A stretch of 64,000 bases of DNA from Allacma fusca (Eukaryota > Arthropoda > Collembola > Symphypleona > Sminthuridae). Below are positions 1 through 63,345 of the stretch, in pieces. Under the pieces are notes generated by a model. It did not search any database, had not been told where the DNA came from, and saw only the letters and a list, made by a program, of their open reading frames with translations. Positions within the stretch are counted from its first letter, which is position 1. Each line of letters starts with the position of its first letter. The stretch lies in contig OX359247.1 in NCBI GenBank assembly GCA_947179485.1, positions 41,640,801 to 41,704,800 of the forward strand. Direction: 5' to 3'. The position numbers and the translations under genes were made by a program.

Positions 1-1459
1 TTGCATACATGAAAATAGCAGAATAATTACATTCTATGAAATGCTCAAAGCAACCATGACCAAACCACGTAAACATTTAACTCGTTTTCTTTGAATTTAT
101 TAACGTAATTTAATGCTTGAAACAATGTTTGCACGCAATAATTTGCATTGGAATATCAAATATTATGTATGCACGTATATACATGTAATTGTTATGAAAT
201 CTCATTAACCGTAATCACTAAATTGATCACAAAGGTACATAATACAGAACAGCAACATATGCAAACAGAAATGTATTTAGTATTGACGGAATAAATTTCA
301 ACTCGATTTTCACAAGACAATGTATACTCATGCAAGCACGTGTAATAACCTAATTCGATTGTTATTGTTTTACAAAAACTCAAGCACTTCCAAATAGAAC
401 GACGTAGTACAACCTGTGAATTAAACAGTTGCAGTTTAAAATGAAACAAATACACAGTGCTCTGATGTGGTCCAGTTATTAAATTAAAACAAGCGTTTTC
501 TAGATTGTGATTACACGACATGTAGATTTGAAGCGTACTACTATGTAGGCAAAGAAATATACTTTTACGGGCGGTGACAAACAAAACAGCAAAAACATTG
601 AAGCTGAACGTTACATTCTTATATTGTAAATTTATCATTGACTAAGTAAATAAATTTAGATTATTCTGAATTCAAAATGCTAGCAGCACTTCTGTTGCAT
701 GTATTGATTAGATTAACTCTTTAAGTTCCGCTCTTCCAGGACGCTAATCGAAAAAACGCATACAAGGTTTAATACAAGGCGTTCACAGCAAGCTGTCGTC
801 CGCCTGTGCATACATGCTTTATAATGGGTATGTATAGTCGACATTATTACACATATTCACCGATACGAGCGCACCAAACGAGAAAAGGCTCAAACAAGTG
901 TTATTGCGCTTATTTTAAATAGTTTTTGAGCGCTGCGTAACAATCGGGAATTTTGCAAGGCACGTTATTCATTCTGACAAATGAAGATTTCATCTACAAT
1001 AAAAGGACAGGGAATTACTTTTACGTAATTTTTTATTACTGAAACCCAAATTATATTCAACTCTCTCCGGTCCATGTCAAATCGCTGTTTCGGTTTTTCT
1101 GTTGTTTCAGTAGAGCAAGTAAGCATCGAATGCACTCTTATGCTATATTATGTCTAGTTGTTCAAAACTATTTACCTTTCATATTTTATAACCACGTAAT
1201 TATACCAGAAAATATAATGAATGAAATAGACTGACTTATGCCAATATATGGCGGCACACTGGGTGGGTGTACAGTCGATAGGCATTATAATTCAACTTAT
1301 CGTCAACAACTTCAGCGTTACTTGCTCTGGCTAAAAACCGTATTTATAAAGATTTAGAATAGATGTTTCATTTGTCTCAGAATTTATGTAACCACAAAGG
1401 ATTGGAAAAATGTAAACAAATTGCTAAATAAAAGTGAACAAATTTGTTTTTTATCAGGT
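1..1459. other. Spacer 3' of ML gene copy 1
   Basis: No gene is supportable here. Positions 1 to about 1000 align by eye, in the same order, with parts of the 2.69-kb units of the second array: for example the stretch around 90-115 ending in TTAACGTAATTTAAT, the block at 400-660, and the block at 735-980. A 148-codon minus-strand frame at 192-638 is open in all five units, but the matching frame in the second array is broken differently, so I treat it as chance. Equivalent spacers follow at +4043-bp steps. Confidence 0.7.
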
Positions 1460-1465
1460 TTTATT
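1460..1465 (-). terminator. Polyadenylation signal of ML gene copy 1
   Basis: AATAAA on the minus strand, 44 bases past the TAA at 1509-1511. The same hexamer lies at 5503-5508, 9547-9552, 13590-13595 and 17633-17638 for copies 2-5. Confidence 0.6.
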
Positions 1466-1508
1466 CATTGAACATGAGCTCCAGCTTCAGGAAAATATTA
1501 TGGGGGTA

Positions 1509-2896
1509 TTATGGGTGAATGCGAGCAGTTACATAACTGCAAACTTCGACAACACCATTCTTGGATAGTTGAATCCGGATTCCAACCAGCTATAGTGCAA
1601 AGGGAAAATATTTTAATGACATGAATTAACCTGTTTTTGATAGTAAGTTAATCATAGCGCAGTTCTCCTTGAAAGAACAAACACCAACATATCCATAGAC
1701 TTTCTGTAACTGATTACGAATGTGGATTCTTGTAATCCGCATTACGTTTTTTACAATATACGTTAGTCTGCTGATATATATTAAATGGAGACATTACAAA
1801 TGTGCGGAATTAGCGACAATAGTGTCGTTCTGTAAGTGCAAGGGCACTGGAGGCATTTTCAGCCATGTTATGATTTTATGCAGAACTTACGCCGTTTCCA
1901 TATTCGCCAGTAATAAGCCCAAGGTAATTAAGTCGGTAAAACTTCGTTGGATCAACTGGACCAGCAAGGGTAGCCTGTAAGATGGTGGTATCTCTTCCAT
2001 CTTGAACGAGTGTAACGTCAAAGTCGAGGTCGTCATATTTGTCAGCTGATTTGGCACAAATAAAAATATATCCTGATACATTAGCAACCGAAACATCACT
2101 CCGAATAAACATATAAATAAAAATGTAAAATTTAATCTTACAAGGAATGAAATCCAAATCAAGTTGATAAACGGAGCCCACATTTAGATCACAGGGAGTT
2201 GACGCACAATCTGTGATGCTAACGTCCACCACAATACCCTGGGAACCTAAACAACAAATTGAAATATCGTAAGTGGATTACTTTTATTGAATACTTGTAC
2301 CCATGGGGCTGTCTATTTCTGGATTTGGGTGTCACCTGTTTGTTACAACAAATTCCAGCTTCGAGTTAAAAAATTAGAACTACATGTTATATTTTTTTTT
2401 TTTCGCGCAGAAGCCCCCGAAGTAGCTTGCTTTGTTAACATTTATATTCCCGTATTCATTACTTAAACCTGGTTTATAAAACCGTAACCAACGGGCACCG
2501 GCACCAACACGATTATACAATATCAGGGGTTTTATGTTAACAGACAACATTTGTAAATCCGCCTTCCAAAACTAACAAACATTCCTTTGGTTGTCCTGAT
2601 GAATTTAAGGTTCGTCTTACGATCAATTTTCTGGATTAATTAATTATACCCAAATGGCAAACTCCCATAAACTAGCTATTCCTAGCGCCTACAAGTTGCC
2701 AGGAGTAATGGTTTTCAATTAGTGACCTAACGTAGCAACAGGAAACGTTTAAAAAAATGTTAGATTGCTTACCACAATTAATAACTCCCCCGACCGACGA
2801 TATATTTGCAACTTCGTGAATGGTCGGGATTCCATGTGTGTCTAGTTTAGAGGCAGAAACTGCCATCAGGATACATAACAGGAAAACGCGATACAT
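1509..2896 (-). CDS. Secreted ML-domain (NPC2/Der p 2-like) lipid-binding protein, copy 1
   Basis: Four exons on the minus strand: 2773-2896, 2142-2246, 1891-2045 and 1509-1589, 465 nt giving 154 residues plus TAA. All three introns (526, 96 and 301 nt) are GT-AG with donors GTAAGC, GTAAGA and GTAAGT, in phases 1, 1 and 0; the frame stays open across every join. A nearer intron 2 acceptor, TATCAG, would create TGA at once, which supports the one chosen. Residues 1-15 form a signal peptide ending AVSA. The ML pattern follows: NCGSQGIVVDV at 40-50, DC at 54-55, PCDL at 59-62, then beta-strand-like segments and a C-terminal GVVEVC ending at Cys145. ML proteins are secreted immunoglobulin-like sandwiches that bind sterols or other lipids (NPC2, MD-2, mite group 2 allergens). 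Cys41-Cys145 and Cys55-Cys60 match two of the three Der p 2 disulfides; the middle pair is absent. An N-glycosylation sequon lies at Asn31. AATAAA is at 1460-1465. The ligand is unknown. Confidence 0.88.
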
Positions 2897-2969
2897 TTGG
2901 GATCTTACGAGTTTGACACTTTTAGAATACTAAAATTGGTTTACATGACATGACAAAGCTTCGTCTGGT

Positions 2970-2976
2970 TTATATA
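2970..2976 (-). promoter_or_regulatory. TATA box of ML gene copy 1
   Basis: TATATAA on the minus strand, 74 bases before the ATG at 2896, so transcription would begin near 2940-2945 with a 5' leader of roughly 45-50 nt. The context TATATAAACC, followed by GAAGCTTTGTCA, recurs almost unchanged before the decayed gene at 63 kb, which argues that it is a real core promoter. Confidence 0.7.
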
Positions 2977-2979
2977 CCC

Positions 2980-4043
2980 GCTGAGCGTTCCAGTATGTGA
3001 TTCGACCCAGATGATGGGCGCAAGACGCCATTGGCACAGATAGGTTTAATCATGAACAGTTATTATCGCGAAAAAATGCGTCTAATGGATGCTTACTAGG
3101 ACACTAAATCGCCTGTGAATTGCTATCAAATTGGGTGCACGCTTCCACGTTCATGTAGCAATACATATTTTATACCCATATTCAATACAACATATGTGAA
3201 AATTATGATTAGAACCCCAAGTACATATGAGGAAGGAGATTAAAACTGACTTAAGGACACCTCGTAAAATTTCACATGAGATGAGAAATTACTCATTTGG
3301 AAATGATTACGAATTAAAAACCACGTCTTTGAAAATTATTAACATAAATCATGACTACAAATGTGTTAAAATTCTATATTACAACTGTGCCATCAAAAAT
3401 AAATCACGTGGTGGAATATCCAAAACTCCTAATTATCGTGATGATATTTAAGATGTAAGGTCAAGATGTACGTAACGCGAAAAATAATATTTCTTGTTCA
3501 TGTAACAAAATTTGCGAAATATTAAAATTACACAAAAACAAACCATGTACGTGTATTTACGAACACTTTGTGGTTGGATCAACGAATGTATTCTTATTTG
3601 TACCTAAGAACCGTGTAGATATATCACAATTTAAACAACACTTGAGTTTGGATAGATTAAATTAGTACTCAACTCTGATTAGACTTTCAGTCATGATACA
3701 CACTTGCATTGACGTGAGCTATTATATTATAAAACACATTTTACAAGAATTAACCCAATTCATCTTTCAACGTAGTCCAGCAAATGTTTCCGCCTGCATA
3801 AGATCCAAATTGCAGGCTGTTTGAATGATAATGGGAAACAAAAATGGATACAAAAGGTAAGGAGGTAATGTTTAGCAGATGTGTGCAGTGTTTTACCGTT
3901 GCGTATTATTGCTATTTACTAAACAAATTTTTCGGTTACGCCCACCGGATATAAGGAACAGATTTTGTGTTGTATTTGTGTAAACTTTCTGCAGTAAGGG
4001 TTTCCGAGCAATTGTTTCAAAATAATTTATACATGTCAATTCT
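2980..4043. other. Spacer 5' of ML gene copy 1
   Basis: No gene is supportable. About 3480-4043 aligns by eye with the second array (for example the TTGACGTRAGCTATT stretch near 3709 and the CCCAATTCATCYTTCAACG stretch near 3755). A donor-like AGGTAAG at 3855-3861 is kept at the matching place in the other array. The 74-codon plus-strand frame at 3227-3451 has no recognisable features and is not kept in the related units. Confidence 0.6.
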
Positions 4044-5551
4044 TTGCATACATGAAAATAGCAGAATAATTACATTCTATGAAATGCTCAAAGCAACCAT
4101 GACCAAACCACGTAAACATTTAACTCGTTTTCTTTGAATTTATTAACGTAATTTAATGCTTGAAACAATGTTTGCACGCAATAATTTGCATTGGAATATC
4201 AAATATTATGTATGCACGTATATACATGTAATTGTTATGAAATCTCATTAACCGTAATCACTAAATTGATCACAAAGGTACATAATACAGAACAGCAACA
4301 TATGCAAACAGAAATGTATTTAGTATTGACGGAATAAATTTCAACTCGATTTTCACAAGACAATGTATACTCATGCAAGCACGTGTAATAACCTAATTCG
4401 ATTGTTATTGTTTTACAAAAACTCAAACACTTCCAAATAGAACGACATAGTACAACCTGTGAATTAAACAGTTGCAGTTTAAAATGAAACAAATACACAG
4501 TGCTCTGATGTGGTCCAGTTATTAAATTAAAACAAGCGTTTTCTAGATTGTGATTACACGACATGTAGATTTGAAGCGTACTACTATGTAGGCAAAGAAA
4601 TATACTTTTACGGGCGGTGACAAACAAAACAGCAAAAACATTGAAGCTGAACGTTACATTCTTATATTGTAAATTTATCATTGACTAAGTAAATAAATTT
4701 AGATTATTCTGAATTCAAAATGCTAGCAGCACGTCTGTTGCATGTATTGATTAGATTAACTCTTTAAGTTCCGCTCTTCCAGGACGCTAATCGAAAAAAC
4801 GCATACAAGGTTTAATACAAGGCGTTCACAGCAAGCTGTCGTCCGCCTGTGCATACATGCTTTATAATGGGTATGTATAGTCGACATTATTACACATATT
4901 CACCGATACGAGCGCACCAAACGAGAAAAGGCTCAAACAAGTGTTATTGCGCTTATTTTAAATAGTTTTTGAGCGCTGGGTAACAATCGGGAATTTTGCA
5001 AGGCACGTTATTCATTCTGACAAATGAAGATTTCATCTACAATAAAAGGACAGGGAATTACTTTTACGTAATTTTTTATTACTGAAACCCAAATTATATT
5101 CAACTCTCTCCGGTCCATGTCAAATCGCTGTTTCGGTTTTTCTGTTGTTTCAGTAGAGCAAGTAAGCATCGAATGCACTCTTATGCTATATTATGTCTAG
5201 TTGTTCAAAACTATTTACCTTTCATATTTTATAACCACGTAATTATACCAGAAAATATAATGAATGAAATAGACTGACTTATGTCAATATATGGCGGCAC
5301 ACTGGGTGGGTGTACAGTCGATAGGCATTCTGATTCAACTTATCGTCAACAACTTCAGCGTTACTTGCTCTGGCTAAAAACCGTATTTATAAAGATTTAG
5401 AATAGATGTTTCATTTGTCTCAGAATTTATGTAACCACAAAGGATTGGAAAAATGTAAACAAATTGCTAAATAAAAGTGAACAAATTTGTTTTTTATCAG
5501 GTTTTATTCATTGAACATGAGCTCCAGCTTCAGGAAAATATTATGGGGGTA

Positions 5552-6940
5552 TTATGGGTGAATGCGAGCAGTTACATAACTGCAAACTTCGACAACACCA
5601 TTCTTGGATAGTTGAATCCGGATTCCAACCAGCTATAGTGCAAAGGGAAAATATTTTAATGACATGAATTAACCTGTTTTTGATAGTAAGTTAATCATAG
5701 CGCAGTTCTCCTTGAAAGAACAAACACCAACATATCCATAGACTTTCTGTAACTGATTACGAATGTGGATTCTTGTAATCCGCATTACGTTTTTTACAAT
5801 ATACGTTAGTCTGCTGATATATATTAAATGGAGACATTACAAATGTGCGGAATTAGCGACAATAGTGTCGTTCTGTAAGTGCAAGGGCACTGGAGGCATT
5901 TTCAGCCATGTTATGATTTTATGCAGAACTTACGCCGTTTCCATATTCGCCAGTAATAAGCCCAAGGTAATTAAGTCGGTAAAACTTCGTTGGATCAACT
6001 GGACCAGCAAGGGTAGCCTGTAAGATGGTGGTATCTCTTCCATCTTGAACGAGTGTAACGTCAAAGTCGAGGTCGTCATATTTGTCAGCTGATTTGGCAC
6101 AAATAAAAATATATCCTGATACATTAGCAACCGAAACATCACTCCGAATAAACATATAAATAAAAATGTAAAATTTAATCTTACAAGGAATGAAATCCAA
6201 ATCAAGTTGATAAACGGAGCCCACATTTAGATCACAGGGAGTTGACGCACAATCTGTGATGCTAACGTCCACCACAATACCCTGGGAACCTAAACAACAA
6301 ATTGAAATATCGTAAGTGGATCTCTTTTATTGAATACTTGTACCCATGGGGCTGTCTATTTCTGGATTTGGTGTGTCACCTGTTTGTTACAACAAATTCC
6401 AGCTTCGAGTTAAAAAATTAGAACTACATGTTATATTATTTTTTTTTCGCGCAGAAGCCCCCGAAGTAGCTTGCTTTGTTAACATTTATATTCCCGTATT
6501 CATTACTTAAACCTGGTTTATAAAACCGTAACCAACGGGCACCGGCACCAACACGATTATACAATATCAGGGGTTTTATGTTAACAGACAACATTTGTAA
6601 ATCCGCCTTCCAAAACTAACAAACATTCCTTTGGTTGTCCTGATGAATTTAAGGTTCGTCTTACGATCAATTTTCTGGATTAATTAATTATACCCAAATG
6701 GCAAACTCCCATAAACTAGCTATTCCTAGCGCCTACAAGTTGCCAGGAGTAATGGTTTTCAATTAGTGACCTAACGTAGCAACAGGAAACGTTTAAAAAA
6801 ATGTTAGATTGCTTACCACAATTAATAACTCCCCCGACCGACGATATATTTGCAACTTCGTGAATGGTCGGGATTCCATGTGTGTCTAGTTTAGAGGCAG
6901 AAACTGCCATCAGGATACATAACAGGAAAACGCGATACAT
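5552..6940 (-). CDS. Secreted ML-domain protein, copy 2
   Basis: Exons on the minus strand: 6817-6940, 6185-6289, 5934-6088 and 5552-5632. The predicted 154-residue product is identical to copy 1, including the signal peptide, Cys41/55/60/145 and the Asn31 sequon. Intron 1 is 527 nt, one longer than in the other copies: it has a shorter T run near 6440 (9 T, interrupted, against 11-12) and an insertion near 6371. AATAAA lies at 5503-5508. Confidence 0.87.
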
Positions 6941-7013
6941 TTGGGATCTTACGAGTTTGACACTTTTAGAATACTAAAATTGGTTTACATGACATGACAA
7001 AGCTTCGTCTGGT

Positions 7014-7020
7014 TTATATA
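7014..7020 (-). promoter_or_regulatory. TATA box of ML gene copy 2
   Basis: TATATAA, 74 bases upstream of the ATG at 6940; surroundings are as in copy 1. Confidence 0.68.
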
Positions 7021-9595
7021 CCCGCTGAGCGTTCCAGTATGTGATTCGACCCAGATGATGGGCGCAAGACGCCATTGGCACAGATAGGTTTAATCATGAA
7101 CAGTTATTATCGCGAAAAAATGCGTCTAATGGATGCTTACTAGGACACTAAATCCCCTGTGAATTGCTATCAAATTGGGTGCACGCTTCCACGTTCATGT
7201 AGCAATACATATTTTATACCCATATTCAATACAACATATGTGAAAATTATGATTAGAACCCCAAGTACATATGAGGAAGGAGATTAAAACTGACTTAAGG
7301 ACACCTCGTAAAATTTCACATGAGATGAGAAATTACTCATTTGGAAATGATTACGAATTAAAAACCACGTCTTTGAAAATTATTAACATAAATCATGACT
7401 ACAAATGTGTTAAAATTCTATATTACAACTGTGCCATCAAAAATAAATCACGTGGTGGAATATCCAAAACTCCTAATTATCGTGATGATATTTAAGATGT
7501 AAGGTCAAGATGTACGTAACGCGAAAAATAATATTTCTTGTTCATGTAACAAAATTTGCGAAATATTAAAATTACACAAAAACAAACCATGTACGTGTAT
7601 TTACGAACACTTTGTGGTTGGATCAACGAATGTATTCTTATTTGTACCTAAGAACCGTGTAGATATATCACAATTTAAACAACACTTGAGTTTGGATAGA
7701 TTAAATTAGTACTCAACTCTGATTAGACTTTCAGTCATGATACACACTTGCATTGACGTGAGCTATTATATTATAAAACACATTTTACAAGAATTAACCC
7801 AATTCATCTTTCAACGTAGTCCAGCAAATGTTTCCGCCTGCATAAGATCCAAATTGCAGGCTGTTTGAATGATAATGGGAAACAAAAATGGATACAAAAG
7901 GTAAGGAGGTAATGTTTAGCAGATGTGTGCAGTGTTTTACCGTTGCGTATTATTGCTATTTACTAAACAAATTTTTCGGTTACGCCCACCGGATATAAGG
8001 AACAGATTTTGTGTTGTATTTGTGTAAACTTTCTGCAGTAAGGGTTTCCGAGCAATTGTTTCAAAATAATTTATACATGTCAATTCTTTGCATACATGAA
8101 AATAGCAGAATAATTACATTCTATGAAATGCTCAAAGCAACCATGACCAAACCACGTAAACATTTAACTCGTTTTCTTTGAATTTATTAACGTAATTTAA
8201 TGCTTGAAACAATGTTTGCACGCAATAATTTGCATTGGAATATCAAATATTATGTATGCACGTATATACATGTAATTGTTATGAAATCTCATTAACCGTA
8301 ATCACTAAATTGATCACAAAGGTACATAATACAGAACAGCAACATATGCAAACAGAAATGTATTTAGTATTGACGGAATAAATTTCAACTCGATTTTCAC
8401 AAGACAATGTATACTCATGCAAGCACGTGTAATAACCTAATTCGATTGTTATTGTTTTACAAAAACTCAAGCACTTCCAAATAGAACGACGTAGTACAAC
8501 CTGTGAATTAAACAGTTGCAGTTTAAAATGAAACAAATACACAGTGCTCTGATGTGGTCCAGTTATTAAATTAAAACAAGCGTTTTCTAGATTGTGATTA
8601 CACGACATGTAGATTTGAAGCGTACTACTATGTAGGCAAAGAAATATACTTTTACGGGCGGTGACAAACAAAACAGCAAAAACATTGAAGCTGAACGTTA
8701 CATTCTTATATTGTAAATTTATCATTGACTAAGTAAATAAATTTAGATTATTCTGAATTCAAAATGCTAGCAGCACTTCTGTTGCATGTATTGATTAGAT
8801 TAACTCTTTAAGTTCCGCTCTTCCAGGACGCTAATCGAAAAAACGCATACAAGTTTTAATACAAGGCGTTCACAGCAAGCTGTCGTCCGCCTGTGCATAC
8901 ATGCTTTATAATGGGTATGTATAGTCGAAATTATTACACATATTCACCGATACGAGCGCACCAAACGAGAAAAGGCTCAAACAAGTGTTATTGCGCTTAT
9001 TTTAAATAGTTTTTGAGCGCTGGGTAACAATCGGGAATTTTGCAAGGCACGTTATTCATTCTGACAAATGAAGATTTCATCTACAATAAAAGGACAGGGA
9101 ATTACTTTTACGTAATTTTTTATTACTGAAACCCAAATTATATTCAACTCTCTCCGGTCCATGTCAAATCGCTGTTTCGGTTTTTCTGTTGTTTCAGTAG
9201 AGCAAGTAAGCATCGAATGCACTCTTATGCTATATTATGTCTAGTTGTTCAAAACTATTTACCTTTCATATTTTATAACCACGTAATTATACCAGAAAAT
9301 ATAATGAATGAAATAGACTGACTTATGTCAATATATGGCGGCACACTGGGTGGGTGTACAGTCGATAGGCATTCTGATTCAACTTATCGTCAACAACTTC
9401 AGCGTTACTTGCTCTGGCTAAAAACCGTATTTATAAAGATTTAGAATAGATGTTTCATTTGTCTCAGAATTTATGTAACCACAAAGGATTGGAAAAATGT
9501 AAACAAATTGCTAAATAAAAGTGAACAAATTTGTTTTTTATCAGGTTTTATTCATTGAACATGAGCTCCAGCTTCAGGAAAATATTATGGGGGTA

Positions 9596-10983
9596 TTATG
9601 GGTGAATGCGAGCAGTTACATAACTGCAAACTTCGACAACACCATTCTTGGATAGTTGAATCCGGATTCCAACCAGCTATAGTGCAAAGGGAAAATATTT
9701 TAATGACATGAATTAACCTGTTTTTGATAGTAAGTTAATCATAGCGCAGTTCTCCTTGAAAGAACAAACACCAACATATCCATAGACTTTCTGTAACTGA
9801 TTACGAATGTGGATTCTTGTAATCCGCATTACGTTTTTTACAATATACGTTAGTCTGCTGATATATATTAAATGGAGACATTACAAATGTGCGGAATTAG
9901 CGACAATAGTGTCGTTCTGTAAGTGCAAGGGCACTGGAGGCATTTTCAGCCATGTTATGATTTTATGCAGAACTTACGCCGTTTCCATATTCGCCAGTAA
10001 TAAGCCCAAGGTAATTAAGTCGGTAAAACTTCGTTGGATCAACTGGACCAGCAAGGGTAGCCTGTAAGATGGTGGTATCTCTTCCATCTTGAACGAGTGT
10101 AACGTCAAAGTCGAGGTCGTCATATTTGTCAGCTGATTTGGCACAAATAAAAATATATCCTGATACATTAGCAACCGAAACATCACTCCGAATAAACATA
10201 TAAATAAAAATGTAAAATTTAATCTTACAAGGAATGAAATCCAAATCAAGTTGATAAACGGAGCCCACATTTAGATCACAGGGAGTTGACGCACAATCTG
10301 TGATGCTAACGTCCACCACAATACCCTGGGAACCTAAACAACAAATTGAAATATCGTAAGTGGATCTCTTTTATTGAATACTTGTACCCATGGGGCTGTC
10401 TATTTCTGGATTTGGTGTGTCACCTGTTTGTTACAACAAATTCCAGCTTCGAGTTAAAAAATTAGAACTACATGTTATATTTTTTTTTTTCGCGCAGAAG
10501 CCCCCGAAGTAGCTTGCTTTGTTAACATTTATATTCCCGTATTTATTACTTAAACCTGGTTTATAAAACCGTAACCAACGGGCACCGGCACCAACACGAT
10601 TATACAATATCAGGGGTTTTATGTTAACAGACAACATTTGTAAATCCGCCTTCCAAAACTAACAAACATTCCTTTGGTTGTCCTGATGAATTTAAGGTTC
10701 GTCTTACGATCAATTTTCTGGATTAATTAATTATACCCAAATGGCAAACTCCCATAAACTAGCTATTCCTAGCGCCTACAAGTTGCCAGGAGTAATGGTT
10801 TTCAATTAGTGACCTAACGTAGCAACAGGAAACGTTTAAAAAAATGTTAGATTGCTTACCACAATTAATAACTCCCCCGACCGACGATATATTTGCAACT
10901 TCGTGAATGGTCGGGATTCCATGTGTGTCTAGTTTAGAGGCAGAAACTGCCATCAGGATACATAACAGGAAAACGCGATACAT
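9596..10983 (-). CDS. Secreted ML-domain protein, copy 3
   Basis: Exons on the minus strand: 10860-10983, 10229-10333, 9978-10132 and 9596-9676. Splice sites and the predicted protein are the same as copy 1. A 68-codon open frame at 10431-10637 lies wholly in intron 1; it appears only where the T run length keeps the frame open (copies 3-5), so it is not a gene. AATAAA lies at 9547-9552. Confidence 0.87.
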
Positions 10984-11056
10984 TTGGGATCTTACGAGTT
11001 TGACACTTTTAGAATACTAAAATTGGTTTACATGACATGACAAAGCTTCGTCTGGT

Positions 11057-11063
11057 TTATATA
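11057..11063 (-). promoter_or_regulatory. TATA box of ML gene copy 3
   Basis: TATATAA, 74 bases upstream of the ATG at 10983. Confidence 0.68.
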
Positions 11064-13638
11064 CCCGCTGAGCGTTCCAGTATGTGATTCGACCCAGATG
11101 ATGGGCGCAAGACGCCATTGGCACAGATAGGTTTAATCATGAACAGTTATTATCGCGAAAAAATGCGTCTAATGGATGCTTACTAGGACACTAAATCCCC
11201 TGTGAATTGCTATCAAATTGGGTGCACGCTTCCACGTTCATGTAGCAATACATATTTTATACCCATATTCAATACAACATATGTGAAAATTATGATTAGA
11301 ACCCCAAGTACATATGAGGAAGGAGATTAAAACTGACTTAAGGACACCTCGTAAAATTTCACATGAGATGAGAAATTACTCATTTGGAAATGATTACGAA
11401 TTAAAAACCACGTCTTTGAAAATTATTAACATAAATCATGACTACAAATGTGTTAAAATTCTATATTACAACTGTGCCATCAAAAATAAATCACGTGGTG
11501 GAATATCCAAAACTCCTAATTATCGTGATGATATTTAAGATGTAAGGTCAAGATGTACGTAACGCGAAAAATAATATTTCTTGTTCATGTAACAAAATTT
11601 GCGAAATATTAAAATTACACAAAAACAAACCATGTACGTGTATTTACGAACACTTTGTGGTTGGATCAACGAATGTATTCTTATTTGTACCTAAGAACCG
11701 TGTAGATATATCACAATTTAAACAACACTTGAGTTTGGATAGATTAAATTAGTACTCAACTCTGATTAGACTTTCAGTCATGATACACACTTGCATTGAC
11801 GTGAGCTATTATATTATAAAACACATTTTACAAGAATTAACCCAATTCATCTTTCAACGTAGTCCAGCAAATGTTTCCGCCTGCATAAGATCCAAATTGC
11901 AGGCTGTTTGAATGATAATGGGAAACAAAAATGGATACAAAAGGTAAGGAGGTAATGTTTAGCAGATGTGTGCAGTGTTTTACCGTTGCGTATTATTGCT
12001 ATTTACTAAACAAATTTTTCGGTTACGCCCACCGGATATAAGGAACAGATTTTGTGTTGTATTTGTGTAAACTTTCTGCAGTAAGGGTTTCCGAGCAATT
12101 GTTTCAAAATAATTTATACATGTCAATTCTTTGCATACATGAAAATAGCAGAATAATTACATTCTATGAAATGCTCAAAGCAACCATGACCAAACCACGT
12201 AAACATTTAACTCGTTTTCTTTGAATTTATTAACGTAATTTAATGCTTGAAACAATGTTTGCACGCAATAATTTGCATTGGAATATCAAATATTATGTAT
12301 GCACGTATATACATGTAATTGTTATGAAATCTCATTAACCGTAATCACTAAATTGATCACAAAGGTACATAATACAGAACAGCAACATATGCAAACAGAA
12401 ATGTATTTAGTATTGACGGAATAAATTTCAACTCGATTTTCACAAGACAATGTATACTCATGCAAGCACGTGTAATAACCTAATTCGATTGTTATTGTTT
12501 TACAAAAACTCAAGCACTTCCAAATAGAACGACGTAGTACAACCTGTGAATTAAACAGTTGCAGTTTAAAATGAAACAAATACACAGTGCTCTGATGTGG
12601 TCCAGTTATTAAATTAAAACAAGCGTTTTCTAGATTGTGATTACACGACATGTAGATTTGAAGCGTACTACTATGTAGGCAAAGAAATATACTTTTACGG
12701 GCGGTGACAAACAAAACAGCAAAAACATTGAAGCTGAACGTTACATTCTTATATTGTAAATTTATCATTGACTAAGTAAATAAATTTAGATTATTCTGAA
12801 TTCAAAATGCTAGCAGCACTTCTGTTGCATGTATTGATTAGATTAACTCTTTAAGTTCCGCTCTTCCAGGACGCTAATCGAAAAAACGCATACAAGTTTT
12901 AATACAAGGCGTTCACAGCAAGCTGTCGTCCGCCTGTGCATACATGCTTTATAATGGGTATGTATAGTCGAAATTATTACACATATTCACCGATACGAGC
13001 GCACCAAACGAGAAAAGGCTCAAACAAGTGTTATTGCGCTTATTTTAAATAGTTTTTGAGCGCTGGGTAACAATCGGGAATTTTGCAAGGCACGTTATTC
13101 ATTCTGACAAATGAAGATTTCATCTACAATAAAAGGACAGGGAATTACTTTTACGTAATTTTTTATTACTGAAACCCAAATTATATTCAACTCTCTCCGG
13201 TCCATGTCAAATCGCTGTTTCGGTTTTTCTGTTGTTTCAGTAGAGCAAGTAAGCATCGAATGCACTCTTATGCTATATTATGTCTAGTTGTTCAAAACTA
13301 TTTACCTTTCATATTTTATAACCACGTAATTATACCAGAAAATATAATGAATGAAATAGACTGACTTATGTCAATATATGGCGGCACACTGGGTGGGTGT
13401 ACAGTCGATAGGCATTCTGATTCAACTTATCGTCAACAACTTCAGCGTTACTTGCTCTGGCTAAAAACCGTATTTATAAAGATTTAGAATAGATGTTTCA
13501 TTTGTCTCAGAATTTATGTAACCACAAAGGATTGGAAAAATGTAAACAAATTGCTAAATAAAAGTGAACAAATTTGTTTTTTATCAGGTTTTATTCATTG
13601 AACATGAGCTCCAGCTTCAGGAAAATATTATGGGGGTA

Positions 13639-15026
13639 TTATGGGTGAATGCGAGCAGTTACATAACTGCAAACTTCGACAACACCATTCTTGGATAGTT
13701 GAATCCGGATTCCAACCAGCTATAGTGCAAAGGGAAAATATTTTAATGACATGAATTAACCTGTTTTTGATAGTAAGTTAATCATAGCGCAGTTCTCCTT
13801 GAAAGAACAAACACCAACATATCCATAGACTTTCTGTAACTGATTACGAATGTGGATTCTTGTAATCCGCATTACGTTTTTTACAATATACGTTAGTCTG
13901 CTGATATATATTAAATGGAGACATTACAAATGTGCGGAATTAGCGACAATAGTGTCGTTCTGTAAGTGCAAGGGCACTGGAGGCATTTTCAGCCATGTTA
14001 TGATTTTATGCAGAACTTACGCCGTTTCCATATTCGCCAGTAATAAGCCCAAGGTAATTAAGTCGGTAAAACTTCGTTGGATCAACTGGACCAGCAAGGG
14101 TAGCCTGTAAGATGGTGGTATCTCTTCCATCTTGAACGAGTGTAACGTCAAAGTCGAGGTCGTCATATTTGTCAGCTGATTTGGCACAAATAAAAATATA
14201 TCCTGATACATTAGCAACCGAAACATCACTCCGAATAAACATATAAATAAAAATGTAAAATTTAATCTTACAAGGAATGAAATCCAAATCAAGTTGATAA
14301 ACGGAGCCCACATTTAGATCACAGGGAGTTGACGCACAATCTGTGATGCTAACGTCCACCACAATACCCTGGGAACCTAAACAACAAATTGAAATATCGT
14401 AAGTGGATCTCTTTTATTGAATACTTGTACCCATGGGGCTGTCTATTTCTGGATTTGGTGTGTCACCTGTTTGTTACAACAAATTCCAGCTTCGAGTTAA
14501 AAAATTAGAACTACATGTTATATTTTTTTTTTTCGCGCAGAAGCCCCCGAAGTAGCTTGCTTTGTTAACATTTATATTCCCGTATTTATTACTTAAACCT
14601 GGTTTATAAAACCGTAACCAACGGGCACCGGCACCAACACGATTATACAATATCAGGGGTTTTATGTTAACAGACAACATTTGTAAATCCGCCTTCCAAA
14701 ACTAACAAACATTCCTTTGGTTGTCCTGATGAATTTAAGGTTCGTCTTACGATCAATTTTCTGGATTAATTAATTATACCCAAATGGCAAACTCCCATAA
14801 ACTAGCTATTCCTAGCGCCTACAAGTTGCCAGGAGTAATGGTTTTCAATTAGTGACCTAACGTAGCAACAGGAAACGTTTAAAAAAATGTTAGATTGCTT
14901 ACCACAATTAATAACTCCCCCGACCGACGATATATTTGCAACTTCGTGAATGGTCGGGATTCCATGTGTGTCTAGTTTAGAGGCAGAAACTGCCATCAGG
15001 ATACATAACAGGAAAACGCGATACAT
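13639..15026 (-). CDS. Secreted ML-domain protein, copy 4
   Basis: Exons on the minus strand: 14903-15026, 14272-14376, 14021-14175 and 13639-13719. The predicted protein is identical to the other copies. The unit is closest to unit 3: both carry the variants near 12969 and 15240 that units 1 and 5 lack. AATAAA lies at 13590-13595. Confidence 0.87.
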
Positions 15027-15099
15027 TTGGGATCTTACGAGTTTGACACTTTTAGAATACTAAAATTGGTTTACATGACATGACAAAGCTTCGTCTGGT

Positions 15100-15106
15100 T
15101 TATATA
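15100..15106 (-). promoter_or_regulatory. TATA box of ML gene copy 4
   Basis: TATATAA, 74 bases upstream of the ATG at 15026. Confidence 0.68.
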
Positions 15107-17681
15107 CCCGCTGAGCGTTCCAGTATGTGATTCGACCCAGATGATGGGCGCAAGACGCCATTGGCACAGATAGGTTTAATCATGAACAGTTATTATCGCG
15201 AAAAAATGCGTCTAATGGATGCTTACTAGGACACTAAATCCCCTGTGAATTGCTATCAAATTGGGTGCACGCTTCCACGTTCATGTAGCAATACATATTT
15301 TATACCCATATTCAATACAACATATGTGAAAATTATGATTAGAACCCCAAGTACATATGAGGAAGGAGATTAAAACTGACTTAAGGACACCTCGTAAAAT
15401 TTCACATGAGATGAGAAATTACTCATTTGGAAATGATTACGAATTAAAAACCACGTCTTTGAAAATTATTAACATAAATCATGACTACAAATGTGTTAAA
15501 ATTCTATATTACAACTGTGCCATCAAAAATAAATCACGTGGTGGAATATCCAAAACTCCTAATTATCGTGATGATATTTAAGATGTAAGGTCAAGATGTA
15601 CGTAACGCGAAAAATAATATTTCTTGTTCATGTAACAAAATTTGCGAAATATTAAAATTACACAAAAACAAACCATGTACGTGTATTTACGAACACTTTG
15701 TGGTTGGATCAACGAATGTATTCTTATTTGTACCTAAGAACCGTGTAGATATATCACAATTTAAACAACACTTGAGTTTGGATAGATTAAATTAGTACTC
15801 AACTCTGATTAGACTTTCAGTCATGATACACACTTGCATTGACGTGAGCTATTATATTATAAAACACATTTTACAAGAATTAACCCAATTCATCTTTCAA
15901 CGTAGTCCAGCAAATGTTTCCGCCTGCATAAGATCCAAATTGCAGGCTGTTTGAATGATAATGGGAAACAAAAATGGATACAAAAGGTAAGGAGGTAATG
16001 TTTAGCAGATGTGTGCAGTGTTTTACCGTTGCGTATTATTGCTATTTACTAAACAAATTTTTCGGTTACGCCCACCGGATATAAGGAACAGATTTTGTGT
16101 TGTATTTGTGTAAACTTTCTGCAGTAAGGGTTTCCGAGCAATTGTTTCAAAATAATTTATACATGTCAATTCTTTGCATACATGAAAATAGCAGAATAAT
16201 TACATTCTATGAAATGCTCAAAGCAACCATGACCAAACCACGTAAACATTTAACTCGTTTTCTTTGAATTTATTAACGTAATTTAATGCTTGAAACAATG
16301 TTTGCACGCAATAATTTGCATTGGAATATCAAATATTATGTATGCACGTATATACATGTAATTGTTATGAAATCTCATTAACCGTAATCACTAAATTGAT
16401 CACAAAGGTACATAATACAGAACAGCAACATATGCAAACAGAAATGTATTTAGTATTGACGGAATAAATTTCAACTCGATTTTCACAAGACAATGTATAC
16501 TCATGCAAGCACGTGTAATAACCTAATTCGATTGTTATTGTTTTACAAAAACTCAAGCACTTCCAAATAGAACGACGTAGTACAACCTGTGAATTAAACA
16601 GTTGCAGTTTAAAATGAAACAAATACACAGTGCTCTGATGTGGTCCAGTTATTAAATTAAAACAAGCGTTTTCTAGATTGTGATTACACGACATGTAGAT
16701 TTGAAGCGTACTACTATGTAGGCAAAGAAATATACTTTTACGGGCGGTGACAAACAAAACAGCAAAAACATTGAAGCTGAACGTTACATTCTTATATTGT
16801 AAATTTATCATTGACTAAGTAAATAAATTTAGATTATTCTGAATTCAAAATGCTAGCAGCACTTCTGTTGCATGTATTGATTAGATTAACTCTTTAAGTT
16901 CCGCTCTTCCAGGACGCTAATCGAAAAAACGCATACAAGTTTTAATACAAGGCGTTCACAGCAAGCTGTCGTCCGCCTGTGCATACATGCTTTATAATGG
17001 GTATGTATAGTCGACATTATTACACATATTCACCGATACGAGCGCACCAAACGAGAAAAGGCTCAAACAAGTGTTATTGCGCTTATTTTAAATAGTTTTT
17101 GAGCGCTGGGTAACAATCGGGAATTTTGCAAGGCACGTTATTCATTCTGACAAATGAAGATTTCATCTACAATAAAAGGACAGGGAATTACTTTTACGTA
17201 ATTTTTTATTACTGAAACCCAAATTATATTCAACTCTCTCCGGTCCATGTCAAATCGCTGTTTCGGTTTTTCTGTTGTTTCAGTAGAGCAAGTAAGCATC
17301 GAATGCACTCTTATGCTATATTATGTCTAGTTGTTCAAAACTATTTACCTTTCATATTTTATAACCACGTAATTATACCAGAAAATATAATGAATGAAAT
17401 AGACTGACTTATGTCAATATATGGCGGCACACTGGGTGGGTGTACAGTCGATAGGCATTCTGATTCAACTTATCGTCAACAACTTCAGCGTTACTTGCTC
17501 TGGCTAAAAACCGTATTTATAAAGATTTAGAATAGATGTTTCATTTGTCTCAGAATTTATGTAACCACAAAGGATTGGAAAAATGTAAACAAATTGCTAA
17601 ATAAAAGTGAACAAATTTGTTTTTTATCAGGTTTTATTCATTGAACATGAGCTCCAGCTTCAGGAAAATATTATGGGGGTA

Positions 17682-19069
17682 TTATGGGTGAATGCGAGCA
17701 GTTACATAACTGCAAACTTCGACAACACCATTCTTGGATAGTTGAATCCGGATTCCAACCAGCTATAGTGCAAAGGGAAAATATTTTAATGACATGAATT
17801 AACCTGTTTTTGATAGTAAGTTAATCATAGCGCAGTTCTCCTTGAAAGAACAAACACCAACATATCCATAGACTTTCTGTAACTGATTACGAATGTGGAT
17901 TCTTGTAATCCGCATTACGTTTTTTACAATATACGTTAGTCTGCTGATATATATTAAATGGAGACATTACAAATGTGCGGAATTAGCGACAATAGTGTCG
18001 TTCTGTAAGTGCAAGGGCACTGGAGGCATTTTCAGCCATGTTATGATTTTATGCAGAACTTACGCCGTTTCCATATTCGCCAGTAATAAGCCCAAGGTAA
18101 TTAAGTCGGTAAAACTTCGTTGGATCAACTGGACCAGCAAGGGTAGCCTGTAAGATGGTGGTATCTCTTCCATCTTGAACGAGTGTAACGTCAAAGTCGA
18201 GGTCGTCATATTTGTCAGCTGATTTGGCACAAATAAAAATATATCCTGATACATTAGCAACCGAAACATCACTCCGAATAAACATATAAATAAAAATGTA
18301 AAATTTAATCTTACAAGGAATGAAATCCAAATCAAGTTGATAAACGGAGCCCACATTTAGATCACAGGGAGTTGACGCACAATCTGTGATGCTAACGTCC
18401 ACCACAATACCCTGGGAACCTAAACAACAAATTGAAATATCGTAAGTGGATCTCTTTTATTGAATACTTGTACCCATGGGGCTGTCTATTTCTGGATTTG
18501 GTGTGTCACCTGTTTGTTACAACAAATTCCAGCTTCGAGTTAAAAAATTAGAACTACATGTTATATTTTTTTTTTTCGCGCAGAAGCCCCCGAAGTAGCT
18601 TGCTTTGTTAACATTTATATTCCCGTATTTATTACTTAAACCTGGTTTATAAAACCGTAACCAACGGGCACCGGCACCAACACGATTATACAATATCAGG
18701 GGTTTTATGTTAACAGACAACATTTGTAAATCCGCCTTCCAAAACTAACAAACATTCCTTTGGTTGTCCTGATGAATTTAAGGTTCGTCTTACGATCAAT
18801 TTTCTGGATTAATTAATTATACCCAAATGGCAAACTCCCATAAACTAGCTATTCCTAGCGCCTACAAGTTGCCAGGAGTAATGGTTTTCAATTAGTGACC
18901 TAACGTAGCAACAGGAAACGTTTAAAAAAATGTTAGATTGCTTACCACAATTAATAACTCCCCCGACCGACGATATATTTGCAACTTCGTGAATGGTCGG
19001 GATTCCATGTGTGTCTAGTTTAGAGGCAGAAACTGCCATCAGGATACATAACAGGAAAACGCGATACAT
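17682..19069 (-). CDS. Secreted ML-domain protein, copy 5 (last of the array)
   Basis: Exons on the minus strand: 18946-19069, 18315-18419, 18064-18218 and 17682-17762. The predicted protein is identical to copies 1-4. This is the last intact copy before the homogenised array ends about 530 bp upstream of its ATG; its TATA box and roughly half a kilobase of 5' flank are still standard. AATAAA lies at 17633-17638. Confidence 0.87.
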
Positions 19070-19142
19070 TTGGGATCTTACGAGTTTGACACTTTTAGAA
19101 TACTAAAATTGGTTTACATGACATGACAAAGCTTCGTCTGGT

Positions 19143-19149
19143 TTATATA
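19143..19149 (-). promoter_or_regulatory. TATA box of ML gene copy 5
   Basis: TATATAA, 74 bases upstream of the ATG at 19069. Confidence 0.68.
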
Positions 19150-19599
19150 CCCGCTGAGCGTTCCAGTATGTGATTCGACCCAGATGATGGGCGCAAGACG
19201 CCATTGGCACAGATAGGTTTAATCATGAACAGTTATTATCGCGAAAAAATGCGTCTAATGGATGCTTACTAGGACACTAAATCGCCTGTGAATTGCTATC
19301 AAATTGGGTGCACGCTTCCACGTTCATGTAGCAATACATATTTTATACCCATATTCAATACAACATATGTGAAAATTATGATTAGAACCCCAAGTACATA
19401 TGAGGAAGGAGATTAAAACTGACTTAAGGACACCTCGTAAAATTTCACATGAGATGAGAAATTACTCATTTGGAAATGATTACGAATTAAAAACCACGTC
19501 TTTGAAAATTATTAACATAAATCATGACTACAAATGTGTTAAAATTCTATATTACAACTGTGCCATCAAAAATAAATCACGTGGTGGAATATCCAAAAC

Positions 19600-20482
19600 T
19601 CGTAATTATCGTGATGATATTAAAGATGTAAAGTCAAGATGTACGCGAACAATATGATTGCGTACATAAAACATGATCTGCGAAATATCAAAACTACAAA
19701 AACACATGCGTATTTACTAACAGTTGACGGTTTGCGAGGTATGTCATTAACACATGAAAAGAAGTTTGTATAGCTTGACAGCGTAGACAAAATATTTTTG
19801 TAGCAGCAAATATCCCGTTATCATGACAAATATATAATTCGATGTGAACCAGCTTTTGCGTTTTTTAAAAATCTCGAATTAAATCCATGTTCTAAGTAAA
19901 ACTTTAGGATATAAAGAAATTATCTTTCTGTGTATGCTTTAGGATTATTTCGATATTTATCGAGGCACGCGTGTGAAAATTTTAACAAATTTGTAGATAT
20001 GTACAAGGGAGGCATTAGTCAGCATAATTAATAAAATAATGGGATTTAAGCGTGCTGACATAGTAGAAAAGTGTAACTCCGAAGGCGGAGTAGATTATTA
20101 ATTATTTATTCAAGTAATTCTTGTGCTTAAAGTAACCAGAATATGGAATAGAACGTTGTTAGCAGGTGTTCCAATTTAAAAATGTTAATCTTCATGTATG
20201 TATATTCACTTAGCTGAGAATCAGAGCTTAAAGTTTTTTAAACATACTTTGTGGCATTTAAATTGTGCAAAATAAAATAAATTTTGATAAATCGAATGGT
20301 CAGGACTTTATAGTGCATCATACATTGTTCATTTCAAATAAATTGTTTATAATAAAAGTGTATGAAAACGAATCATGTATGTATATTCACGAACAATCAG
20401 TGGTTCCTTTAAGGAATTTATTCTATACTAAATTTCAACCAAGCAGCGTTTGGACATATCACAATTTAAACAAAACTTGTAC
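19600..20482. repeat. Diverged chimeric unit at the junction of the two arrays
   Basis: Near-identity to array A stops close to 19600. The sequence stays related to the array A spacer but diverged up to about 19730, then switches to sequence related to the 2.69-kb unit (compare 19735-20090 with 21750-22110, and 20225-20480 with 22290-22540) at clearly lower identity than the array units show to each other. At 20480 it jumps directly to the conserved start of the next unit, lacking the roughly 620-bp block found between those points in full units. It reads as an old edge copy not reached by homogenisation. Confidence 0.75.
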
Positions 20483-23161
20483 GCAACCATGAATAAATGT
20501 AGTAGTAGTGGCACTACATTTCAAATCTATTTTTACAAGATGCTGTGTACTTATACATACCGCAACTGTCTAAATTAACTCGTTCATATTTTTAAAAACG
20601 CAGGCTCTTCAATAAAGAACGAGATAGTACAACCCGTGAAATTAGTAGTTTAAGTTTTAAACAAAACAATACACAAAACTGGTATGATGTCCAGTTATTA
20701 AATTTAAGCATAAGATTTTTCTAGATTGTGGTTGTTCAACGTGTAGTATTATGTTATATATGTATAAAATTATGCTAGCATTGATAGCGAAAAACACAAA
20801 AGCAAACACGTATTGAAACTGAATGATAAATTGTTGCATTGTAAATTTATCGTTGACTAAGCGAATAAATTCAGATTGTGCTGAATTCAAGAACACCTGG
20901 ATATTTTTATTCGGAGAATACTTCAGAAACACTTCAAATATTGACGACTCAACGCGTCGTTCAGTTGGTAAACTGCTGAAGGTTACGTTACGCGATTACC
21001 TTTAATTGGACCGACGTGCAAGGAAAGCTTTTTTGGTATCTATTTTGTTATGCACGCGAAAACGTGCCGCATACAAGGTAGGGAAAAGATAAAGAAACAA
21101 GGAACATAGTATAAATGCGGAGATTAGAAACGCATTTGGAGACTTCACGAATTGGAGCACATATATACATTTGAATGGACCAATTCAATGGAACATCTGC
21201 GTGCTTCAAGACACTGGTAGTAAACACATAGTATGTACTAATAAGATGGTTATTCTAGTTTCAGTTTTTCCGGATGCTAATCGAAGAAACGCACACATGT
21301 TTTAATACAAAGCGTTTACATTGAGCTGCCATCCGTTTGTGCACTCATGCTTTAAAGTGCTTATGTGCAGTACATGTTATTACACAAAATTACCTAAAAG
21401 AGCACGCCTATCGAGCAAAGGCTCGCCCAGGTGTCTAACAACATTGCATGCAAATTAATTAGTTTTTGTGCGTTGGGTTACAATCCAGATAAGAATGTTG
21501 TGCTTTTCTGACTTCATGATTGTGAAATTGAAAGCGTTCTAGCAATTATTCTGTTGTCATGGCCTCAGAATCCTGACGGCAAATACAAGGTCCTGATGAG
21601 CGACTTAAATTAGGTTGATCAACTATAATAGTTTTTGAATTAATAAAAACAGTTTGAGCATTTTTGCCTAACGATTGCTGCTGGGTTCTTGGCTTTCGCA
21701 TTGGGCCGGTTGGAAGATTTTAAAATATGGAATGTTGCTTTGTTCGTAGTTCGACAAGTATGTAATAAACACATGGAAAGTAGGGTATATGGCGTGACGG
21801 CGTAGCCAAATTGGATTTGCAGCAGCATACATCCCGTTATCATGACAAATATATAATTTCCTGTGAACCAGCTTGTACGTTCTTAAAATATCTCGGAATT
21901 TGGAAACAATGTTCTACGTAAAACTTTAGGATAGAAAGAAATTACCTTTCTGTGTATGTTTTAGGATTATTTAGACATTTTTTGAGACACGCGTGCGAAA
22001 ATTATAACAAATTTCTACATATGTACAAAAGAGGCTTTAATCAGCATAATTAATAAGATAATGGGAATTAAGCGTGCTGACATAGTAGACAAGTGTAACT
22101 CTGAAAGACCAACGGGTATAAATTGGAGTAGAAACGTCATTAAAAACTAATAATAGACCAGTTGAAAACAAATTACTAGCTCTGCCTCAATTTTGCGAAA
22201 TCAGTATTTGAAGTAATTCTTGTGTTTAAATTAACTAGAATATGCAATGGAACGTTTTGGGCAGATGTCTCAATTTGAGAATGTTGAGCTTAAAGTTTTG
22301 TGGCATACTGTGTGGCCTTTTAATTGGGCAAAATAAAACAACGTTTGATAAATCGAATGGTCAGGACTCCATAGGGCATCTTTCATTGTTCATTTGAAAT
22401 AAATTGTTTATAATCAAAGTGTATGAAAACGAATCATTTATGTATATTCACGAACATTCAGTGGTTATTCTAACGAATTTATTCTATTCTAAATTTCAAC
22501 CAAGGAGCGTTTGGACATATCACAATTTAAACAAAACTTGTGCATGGCCAGATTAAATTCGCATTCAATTCCGATTAGACTCCGTCATAACAGGCACTTG
22601 CATTGACGTAAGCTATTCTATTATAAAACACATGTTGCAACAAATAACCCAATTCATCCTTCAACGTAATCCCGCATGTGTTTTCTCCTGCACAAAAAAC
22701 AAAATCGGGCTGTTTGAACTATACCAGAAGGCAAACATTGACACAATAGGTAAGAACGTAACGTATAGCAACTCATTGCATAGTATAACCGTTGCATATA
22801 ATAAATATTCCCGGAATCAACTTTTCCGCTACACCCATCGCATATTAGCAATATACTTTGTATTGCATTATCCTAGACTGACAGTAGTTAGGGTTTCCAA
22901 GCAATGTCTCGAAAAACAGTTCATATGTGTCCAATTAATTTTTAAAACATATAATTCGTAGACACATCACAATGTATGAAATGTCCAACACGGTCATGCT
23001 GGTGTTAAATCATCACACCATGCAAACAGTTAACGCATTTCCTTTGAATGTATTAACGTAATTTAATTATTTCAACGGAGTTCGCAGGTTTGAACTATTA
23101 TTGCTAGCTCACATATGATATATGCACATGTATGCATCTATAACCCAGTGTAGCCATATAT
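20483..23161. repeat. Array B unit 1
   Basis: 2679 bp. It lacks an 8-bp segment (GCAGCGAA) present in all later units near 23430 and equivalents, which accounts for its shorter length and changes the open frame there. Confidence 0.9.
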
Positions 23162-25848
23162 GCAACCATGAATAAATGTAGTAGTAGTGGCACTACATTT
23201 CAAATCTATTTTTACAAGATGCTGTGTACGTATACATACCGCAACTGTCAAAATTAACTCGTTCATATTTTTAAAAACGCAAGCTCTTCAATAAAGAACG
23301 AGATAGTACAACCCGTGAAATTAGTAGTTTAAGTTTTAAACAAAACAATACACAAAACTAGTATGATGTCCAGTTATTAAATTTAAGCATAAGATTTTTC
23401 TAGATTGTGGTTGTTCAACGTGTAGTATTGCAGCGAAATGTTATATATGTATAAAATTATGCTAGCATTGATAGCGAAAAACACAAAAGCAAACACGTAT
23501 TGAAACTGAATGATAAATTGTTGCATTGTAAATTTATCGTTGACTAAGCGAATAAATTCAGATTGTGCTGAATTCAAGAACACCTGGATATTTTTATTCG
23601 GAGAATACTTCAGAAACACTTCAAATATTGACGACTCAACGCGTCGTTCAGTTGGTAAACTGCTGAAGGTTACGTTACGCGATTACCTTTAATTGGACCG
23701 ACGTGCAAGGAAAGCTTTTTTGGTATCTATTTTGTTATGCACGCGAAAACGTGCCGCATACAAGGTAGGGAAAAGATAAAGAAACAAGGAACATAGTATA
23801 AATGCGGAGATTAGAAACGCATTTGGAGACTTCACGAATTGGAGCACATATATACATTTGAATGGACCAATTCAATGGAACATCTGCGTGCTTCAAGACA
23901 CTGGTAGTAAACACATAGTATGTACTAATAAGATGGTTATTCTAGTTTCAGTTTTTCCGGATGCTAATCGAAGAAACGCACACATGTTTTAATACAAAGC
24001 GTTTACATTGAGCTGCCATCCGTTTGTGCACTCATGCTTTAAAGTGCTTATGTGCAGTACATGTTATTACACAAAATTACCTAAAAGAGCACGCCTATCG
24101 AGCAAAGGCTCGCCCAGGTGTCTAACAACATTGCATGCAAATTAATTAGTTTTTGTGCGTTGGGTTACAATCCAGATAAGAATGTTGTGCTTTTCTGACT
24201 TCATGATTGTGAAATTGAAAGCGTTCTAGCAATTATTCTGTTGTCATGGCATCAGAATCCTGACGGCAAATACAAGGTCCTGATGAGCGACTTAAATTAG
24301 GTTGATCAACTATAATAGTTTTTGAATTAATAAAAACAGTTTGAGCATTTTTGCCTAACGATTGCTGCTGGGTTCTTGGCTTTCGCATTGGGCCGGTTGG
24401 AAGATTTTAAAATATGGAATGTTGCTTTGTTCGTAGTTCGACAAGTATGTAATAAACACATGGAAAGTAGGGTATATGGCGTGACGGCGTAGCCAAATTG
24501 GATTTGCAGCAGCATACATCCCGTTATCATGACAAATATATAATTTCCTGTGAACCAGCTTGTACTTTCTTAAAATATCTCGGAATTTGGAAACAATGTT
24601 CTACGTAAAACTTTAGGATAGAAAGAAATTACCTTTCTGTGTATGTTTTAGGATTATTTAGGCATTTTTTGAGACACGCGTGCGAAAATTATAACAAATT
24701 TCTACATATGTACAAAAGAGGCTTTAATCAGCATAATTAATAAGATAATGGGAATTAAGCGTGCTGACATAGTAGACAAGTGTAACTCTGAAAGACCAAC
24801 GGGTATAAATTGGAGTAGAAACGTCATTAAAAACTAATAATAGACCAGTTGAAAACAAATTACTAGCTCTGCCTCAATTTTGCGAAATCAGTATTTGAAG
24901 TAATTCTTGTGTTTAAATTAACTAGAATATGCAATGGAACGTTTTGGGCAGATGTCTCAATTTGAGAATGTTGAGCTTAAAGTTTTGTGGCATACTGTGT
25001 GGCCTTTTAATTGGGCAAAATAAAACAACGTTTGATAAATCGAATGGTCAGGACTCCATAGGGCATCTTTCATTGTTCATTTGAAATAAATTGTTTATAA
25101 TCAAAGTGTATGAAAACGAATCATTTATGTATATTCACGAACATTCAGTGGTTATTCTAACGAATTTATTCTATTCTAAATTTCAACCAAGGAGCGTTTG
25201 GACATATCACAATTTAAACAAAACTTGTGCATGGCCAGATTAAATTCGCATTCAATTCCGATTAGACTCCGTCATAACAGGCACTTGCATTGACGTAAGC
25301 TATTCTATTATAAAACACATGTTGCAACAAATAACCCAATTCATCCTTCAACGTAATCCCGCATGTGTTTTCTCCTGCACAAAAAACAAAATCGGGCTGT
25401 TTGAACTATACCAGAAGGCAAACATTGACACAATAGGTAAGAACGTAACGTATAGCAACTCATTGCATAGTATAACCGTTGCATATAATAAATATTCCCG
25501 GAATCAACTTTTCCGCTACACCCATCGCATATTAGCAATATACTTTGTATTGCATTATCCTAGACTGACAGTAGTTAGGGTTTCCAAGCAATGTCTCGAA
25601 AAACAGTTCATATGTGTCCAATTAATTTTTAAAACATATAATTCGTAGACACATCACAATGTATGAAATGTCCAACACGGTCATGCTGGTGTTAAATCAT
25701 CACACCATGCAAACAGTTAACGCATTTCCTTTGAATGTATTAACGTAATTTAATTATTTCAACGGAGTTCGCAGGTTTGAACTATTATTGCTAGCTCACA
25801 TATGATATATGCACATGTATGCATCTATAACCCAGTGTAGCCATATAT
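23162..25848. repeat. Array B unit 2
   Basis: 2687 bp. Private G for A in TTTAGGCATT near 24661; otherwise close to units 1 and 3. Confidence 0.9.
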
Positions 25849-57845: not shown

Positions 57846-58330
57846 TGTTTATAATATCACGGACCTTGTTCTTAAACATTTACCACAGTTCTATGAAATC
57901 GAACAGTAAAAGAAGTTTAGACTTGTGGTTTTGGCCAAAAAGGTTAACAAACTAAATATTTTAATGATTTGTATGGTTTTGGCGTGTATTGTTTTAATGA
58001 TTTGATGAAATTTGTAACATAATGCCGGTGCATGACATTTGCACAAAATCAGTCGATATATTCGCAGATAATATTACGGAGCTAAAATACAATGAGATGG
58101 AATTACTTGATTTGTAAATAGCTTAAGCGGAAGGTGTGTTTACTCAAATTTATGAATCACATATAATTATATTTACGTCATTATCCTGGACACTGGATTA
58201 TCCAAAATCTACTGATTACTTTTAATATCCTACTGCAGTTTTATTGAGTGCCTAGTTGATATACATCCTAACTAAACGCATTATTAAATTTAGTATTATC
58301 CAGCAGTATATGTGAAGATACGAATTTGAT
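57846..58330. other. Unassigned AT-rich flank
   Basis: No coding region, known repeat or RNA gene is supportable. It may be older LINE 3' sequence next to the downstream fragment, but I see no diagnostic motif. Confidence 0.4.
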
Positions 58331-62663: not shown

Positions 62664-62689
62664 TAAAATATGTTTGAGTTGTGTGATTT

Positions 62690-63143: not shown

Positions 63144-63345
63144 CACAGTTAACAACTCCCCCGACCGACATTGTATTTTTAATCTTGTCAATGAACGGGC
63201 GAACTCTAAGCGTATCTATTATAGAGAAAAACAATACCATCACGATATACAGAACCGAATTAGTGTACATGTTATTGCTGTCGATTTTACTCCAATTTAG
63301 AAGGTTAAAGGTGATTTGCTTGTCTTGACGAAGCTCTATCTGGGT

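Follow-up and report, generated by a model that had tools for sequence, protein, structure and literature searches.

What gene does the tandem array on chromosome 3 of the springtail Allacma fusca carry, and how did its copies arise? The array, referred to as array A, lies in a stretch of 64,000 nt of this chromosome (C10:41640801-41704800, C10 being chromosome 3), hereafter the window. Very probably, it represents a divergent gene of the ML family (MD-2-related lipid-recognition, which includes NPC2 and Der p 2) that was recently amplified head to tail, each copy probably being a gene of its own for a putative secreted lipid carrier. The genome note of A. fusca reports a span of 392.8 Mb, with a chromosome 3 of 66.08 Mb and an N50 of 66,084,411 (PMC10427803). 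Array A is not described among the literature matches listed on Allacma fusca or on ML/NPC2 proteins, and a targeted search found no literature on MD-2-related lipid-recognition in springtails. Scans of the window with Rfam (gathering thresholds) and with ARAGORN gave no hits.

Structure of the array and of its gene

Within the window, array A is composed of five direct (head-to-tail) units with spacings of 4043, 4044, 4043 and 4043 bp. Each unit contains one copy of a four-exon gene, and the features are the following.

1..19660, no strand assigned: array A in the window, four whole units of 4,043/4,044 bp and a fifth unit with a complete gene but an early end
1509..2896, minus strand: gene copy 1, exons 2773-2896, 2142-2246, 1891-2045 and 1509-1589, 154 residues
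2974 and 1465, minus strand: sequence signals of copy 1, TATAAA beginning at 2974 and AATAAA at 1465
5552..6940, minus strand: gene copy 2, exons 6817-6940, 6185-6289, 5934-6088 and 5552-5632, protein as in copy 1
9596..10983, minus strand: gene copy 3, exons 10860-10983, 10229-10333, 9978-10132 and 9596-9676, protein as in copy 1
13639..15026, minus strand: gene copy 4, exons 14903-15026, 14272-14376, 14021-14175 and 13639-13719, protein as in copy 1
17682..19069, minus strand: gene copy 5, exons 18946-19069, 18315-18419, 18064-18218 and 17682-17762, protein as in copy 1

The exons measure 124, 105, 155 and 81 nt (the last including the stop codon), and each of them is matched exactly in the five window units. 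They are separated by three introns of phases 1, 1 and 0, all GT...AG in the five window copies, and yield a coding sequence of 465 nt for a protein of 154 residues. In all five copies the ATG is preceded by a TATAAA that begins 78 bases before it, and the stop is followed by 43 bases and then AATAAA. Since the TATA box, the four exons and the poly(A) signal are kept in each complete unit, each copy probably constitutes a gene in its own right.

The four-exon model, with the three joins proposed by a first-pass annotation of the window, is supported by comparison with related sequences. The database protein P0001 ("unnamed protein product [Allacma fusca]", 145 residues, from a 2,837-bp contig) is a partial model of the array gene, identical to the array protein at 117 of 118 aligned residues. 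It spans joins 1 and 2 and departs from our model at both ends, with a different N-terminus and a read-through at the third donor. The gene had been described as unannotated, which is correct only for the part that P0001 leaves without a database model. The third join is deduced from relatives that carry a similar exon 4: exon-4 sequence is present in the database protein P0002 and in a paralogue at 41.229 Mb, and the exon 4 of five spliced paralogues (see below) is similar to that of the array gene and equal in phase.

The suspicion that the array continues to the left of the window was borne out. One complete unit is found there (C10:41636757-41640800), whose protein carries the substitution Tyr113Cys, together with an additional copy cut off in exon 3. 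Array A thus totals six complete genes, five of them with an identical protein, and one truncated copy. The five-fold amplification first announced is exact for the window but under-counts the array, and the identity of the predicted proteins holds for the 154 residues of the five window copies but not for the complete copy on the left. The pairwise identity of the six units with a complete gene ranges from 99.73 to 100%; for the fifth window unit, the comparison covers the first 3,429 positions. The truncated copy, kept out of this range, is 99.74-99.86% identical to the other units. Near-identical head-to-tail units, with the reading frame intact in all six complete copies, are characteristic of a recent tandem array.

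Membership of the ML family

The first-pass annotation had assigned the protein to the ML family and had set a Pfam search with the spliced protein as the test by which this assignment could be refuted. Several results weigh against the assignment. The array protein itself gave no PF02221 row at E values up to 10 (the HMMER filters dropping most matches above about 0.1), and the NCBIfam scan gave no ML hit. A direct search of the PDB with the array protein speaks for the assignment in that NPC2 fills the three best rows (E 0.039-0.078), but the match is confined to residues 40-76. The smaller profile A1 (three sequences) reached NPC2 at 0.062 only. Finally, VIA-align on the predicted model of the paralogue P0003 leaves NPC2 tied with arrestin/VPS26 sandwiches, without separation. 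Two other results were set aside: DUF7926, the sole Pfam row for the array protein (E 0.081, 13.5 bits versus a cut-off of 33.5), was rejected, and the AlphaFold model of P0001 alone (pLDDT 40.3) was too poor for use.

The array protein was placed through its intact paralogues with equal exons, the family profile and the fold of a paralogue. Five paralogues could be spliced from chromosome 3 of A. fusca, three of them coinciding letter for letter with database proteins. For this splicing, phase 1 was imposed on exon 1, and a product was kept only if it had certain motifs and exceeded 125 residues; the loci L043-L045 gave two splice solutions each, of which the one with the family pattern was retained. 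In all five, exon 2 measures 105 nt, exon 3 has 152 or 155, and the intron phases are those of the array gene. Four cysteines of the array protein other than Cys8 (Cys41, Cys55, Cys60 and Cys145) align in relative place with those of the five paralogues. A protein search with a paralogue recovered six matches, P0003 to P0008, five of which are named "MD-2-related lipid-recognition"; in alignment A5 they are 32-39% identical to the array protein. The array protein by itself recovered one protein, and together with A1 the searches yielded P0001 and P0002 only. All matches of these searches (array protein, A1 at E values up to 10, and a paralogue) come from A. fusca and no orthologue was found outside this species, at a sensitivity that requires shared five-residue words for a match.

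The family profile A5 (eight sequences, mostly paralogues) matches NPC2 at 2.3e-7 and the mite group 2 allergens Der p 2 / Der f 2 with E values from 5.2e-5 to 4.5e-4, the match with Der p 2 covering profile positions 30-141. Foldseek ranks 1-7 of the P0003 model (pLDDT 69.6) are all NPC2 or mite group 2. The family profile, the labels of the paralogues and the predicted fold of one of them point to NPC2 and Der p 2, but the array protein by itself does not reach PF02221, and the array gene is supported only through its family as a divergent ML member.

ML proteins are secreted; a cysteine pair links their first strand to the last, and they have a short Cys-loop. The array protein has an N-terminal hydrophobic stretch and would be a secreted beta-sandwich of small size, with Cys41-Cys145 and Cys55-Cys60 as its two predicted disulfides. 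By kinship, its cargo outside the cell would most likely be a lipid or some other small hydrophobic molecule.

Exon-level matches to the array protein are located on chromosome 3 in 58 of 60 cases. Two nearer paralogues of the array gene, L012 (4459-5394, C10:41.229 Mb) and L011 (about 3327-5148, C10:41.75 Mb), are probably broken, because both have an in-frame stop in exon 2 (in L012, if spliced like the array gene). Another small ML-like gene cluster is found at C10:53.656-53.688 Mb (L043, L044). It comprises four exon matches (53655888, 53672096, 53678756 and 53687500), and splicing of two of them gave very similar proteins. A search for PF02221 in the 14 named control genomes gave none in any of them, as would be expected of prokaryote controls.

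Neighbouring sequences

To the right of array A, the window contains the following features.

19739..20750, no strand assigned: diverged array-B-like DNA between the arrays, in pieces 79-98% identical to unit B
20751..57848, no strand assigned: array B, 13.8 copies, made up of 13 full-length units (2,687-2,689 bp) plus a partial one
58946-60079, minus strand: reverse transcriptase fragment, 377 residues (PF00078, E 2.5e-14, 53.9 bits), adjoining the next feature
about 60160..63270, minus strand: broken ML paralogue, exons 1-3 related by alignment and exon 4 by eye

The complete units of array B are 99.11-99.96% alike. About half of unit B shares 67-81% identity with the non-coding part of unit A, and no ML exon was detected in array B by tblastn at E values up to 0.1. 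A frame of 109 residues is open in all 13 complete copies of unit B; it was not taken for a gene, because these copies are about 99% alike and because the related stretch of unit A stops early, within 28 codons in each of the three forward frames. The repeat-like flanking DNA would have predated the gene array and may have fed unequal exchanges.

In the broken ML paralogue, exon 2 matches in two reading frames. An insert of ~0.9 kb (about 60660-61540), with a short direct repeat and imperfect inverted ends seen by eye, recalls a non-autonomous hAT element.

Origin of the array and alternative explanations

Among the first 3,429 positions of the five window units there are 16 variable columns and none in the 465 coding bases, where 2.2 are expected. 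When the left unit is added, 16 variable positions are counted on unit-1 coordinates, one of them exonic. As the probability of observing no exonic variant is about 0.10, the identity of the proteins is not by itself evidence of selection; it reflects recency or homogenisation, and selection is not needed.

These figures, with exonic variation at the level expected without selection, suit the alternative that array A is a satellite-like expansion in which the gene copies are passive passengers of exchange between flanking repeats, most of them silent or dispensable. So do the adjoining gene-less array B with its related non-coding DNA, the truncated copy, the copy with Tyr113Cys and the apparently broken paralogues nearby. 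We nevertheless consider it less likely than not; against it, the reading frame is intact in each of the six complete copies. Comparison of the array gene with the 41.23-Mb paralogue gives a dN/dS of 0.54 (NG86) or 0.52 (YN00) over 429 aligned coding bases, values given with no significance test. This paralogue may itself be broken, and the values hint at past constraint and no more.

It is rather improbable that the copy number is partly an artefact of assembly, with too many or too few units counted, or with the two haplotypes merged if the array is variable. Window units 3 and 4 show no difference over 4,043 bp, and for this reason the copy number is given as assembled and is still provisional. 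Moreover, the window falls within a heterozygous inversion of chromosome 3 reported in the genome note at about 5 to 45 Mb (PMC10427803). On the other hand, the other units are distinguishable, differing at several positions in telling patterns; the published assembly is described as HiFi at 80-fold with a QV of 58.7 (PMC10427803), and error alone would hardly yield a tandem array as such.

The inversion also permits a bolder proposal: the copies would be expressed and amplify dosage, their number would differ between the inversion arrangements, and the inversion-dependent dose would be under selection in a species where the paternal genome is probably eliminated in males. We regard it as very improbable. 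That the array protein is a secreted beta-sandwich of another family, merely ML-like, is very improbable too: the missing PF02221 hit, the short direct NPC2 match and the VIA-align tie speak for it, but are opposed by the extent of the A5 match to Der p 2, by the Foldseek ranks of the P0003 model and by the exon structure common to the paralogues labelled MD-2-related.

Under the favoured explanation, a recently amplified ML gene, unequal crossing-over is the most likely way in which the array expanded, and its uniformity would be due to young age or to homogenisation by exchange. Several gene copies may raise the dose of the protein.

Comparison with known systems

Animal NPC2 and NPC2-like proteins (ML domain, PF02221) resemble the array family in the A5 profile match, the top Foldseek rows of P0003, the similar size and the N-terminal hydrophobic stretch; they differ in that the array protein itself is below Pfam detection. 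The disulfides number three in human NPC2, against two predicted here. Der p 2 / Der f 2 are matched by A5 over most of their length and occupy Foldseek ranks 4-6, but they are mite group 2 allergens of another lineage. Within A. fusca, P0003, P0004 and P0006-P0008 share with the array gene an equal length of exon 2, an exon 3 within 3 nt and equal phases where spliced, whereas those with a known position (51.8-55.1 Mb) are away from the array, and their weak PF02221 rows have no counterpart in the array protein. As a lesson of method, intact paralogues with equal exons can serve to place a gene that Pfam misses.

ML/NPC2 families of about a dozen genes have been reported in arthropods, with 11 in the springtail Onychiurus arcticus, and a carrier role in chemical communication has been suggested for NPC2-like proteins of arthropods (PMC4145409). 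With array A, the sizeable ML family of A. fusca gains a gene model at intron level and a gene array of very young age. In the butterfly Parnassius glacialis, the NPC2 genes are likewise reported to have grown by tandem duplication (PMC11942102), and array A is a fresh instance of this ordinary arthropod pattern of ML/NPC2 families and tandem duplication.
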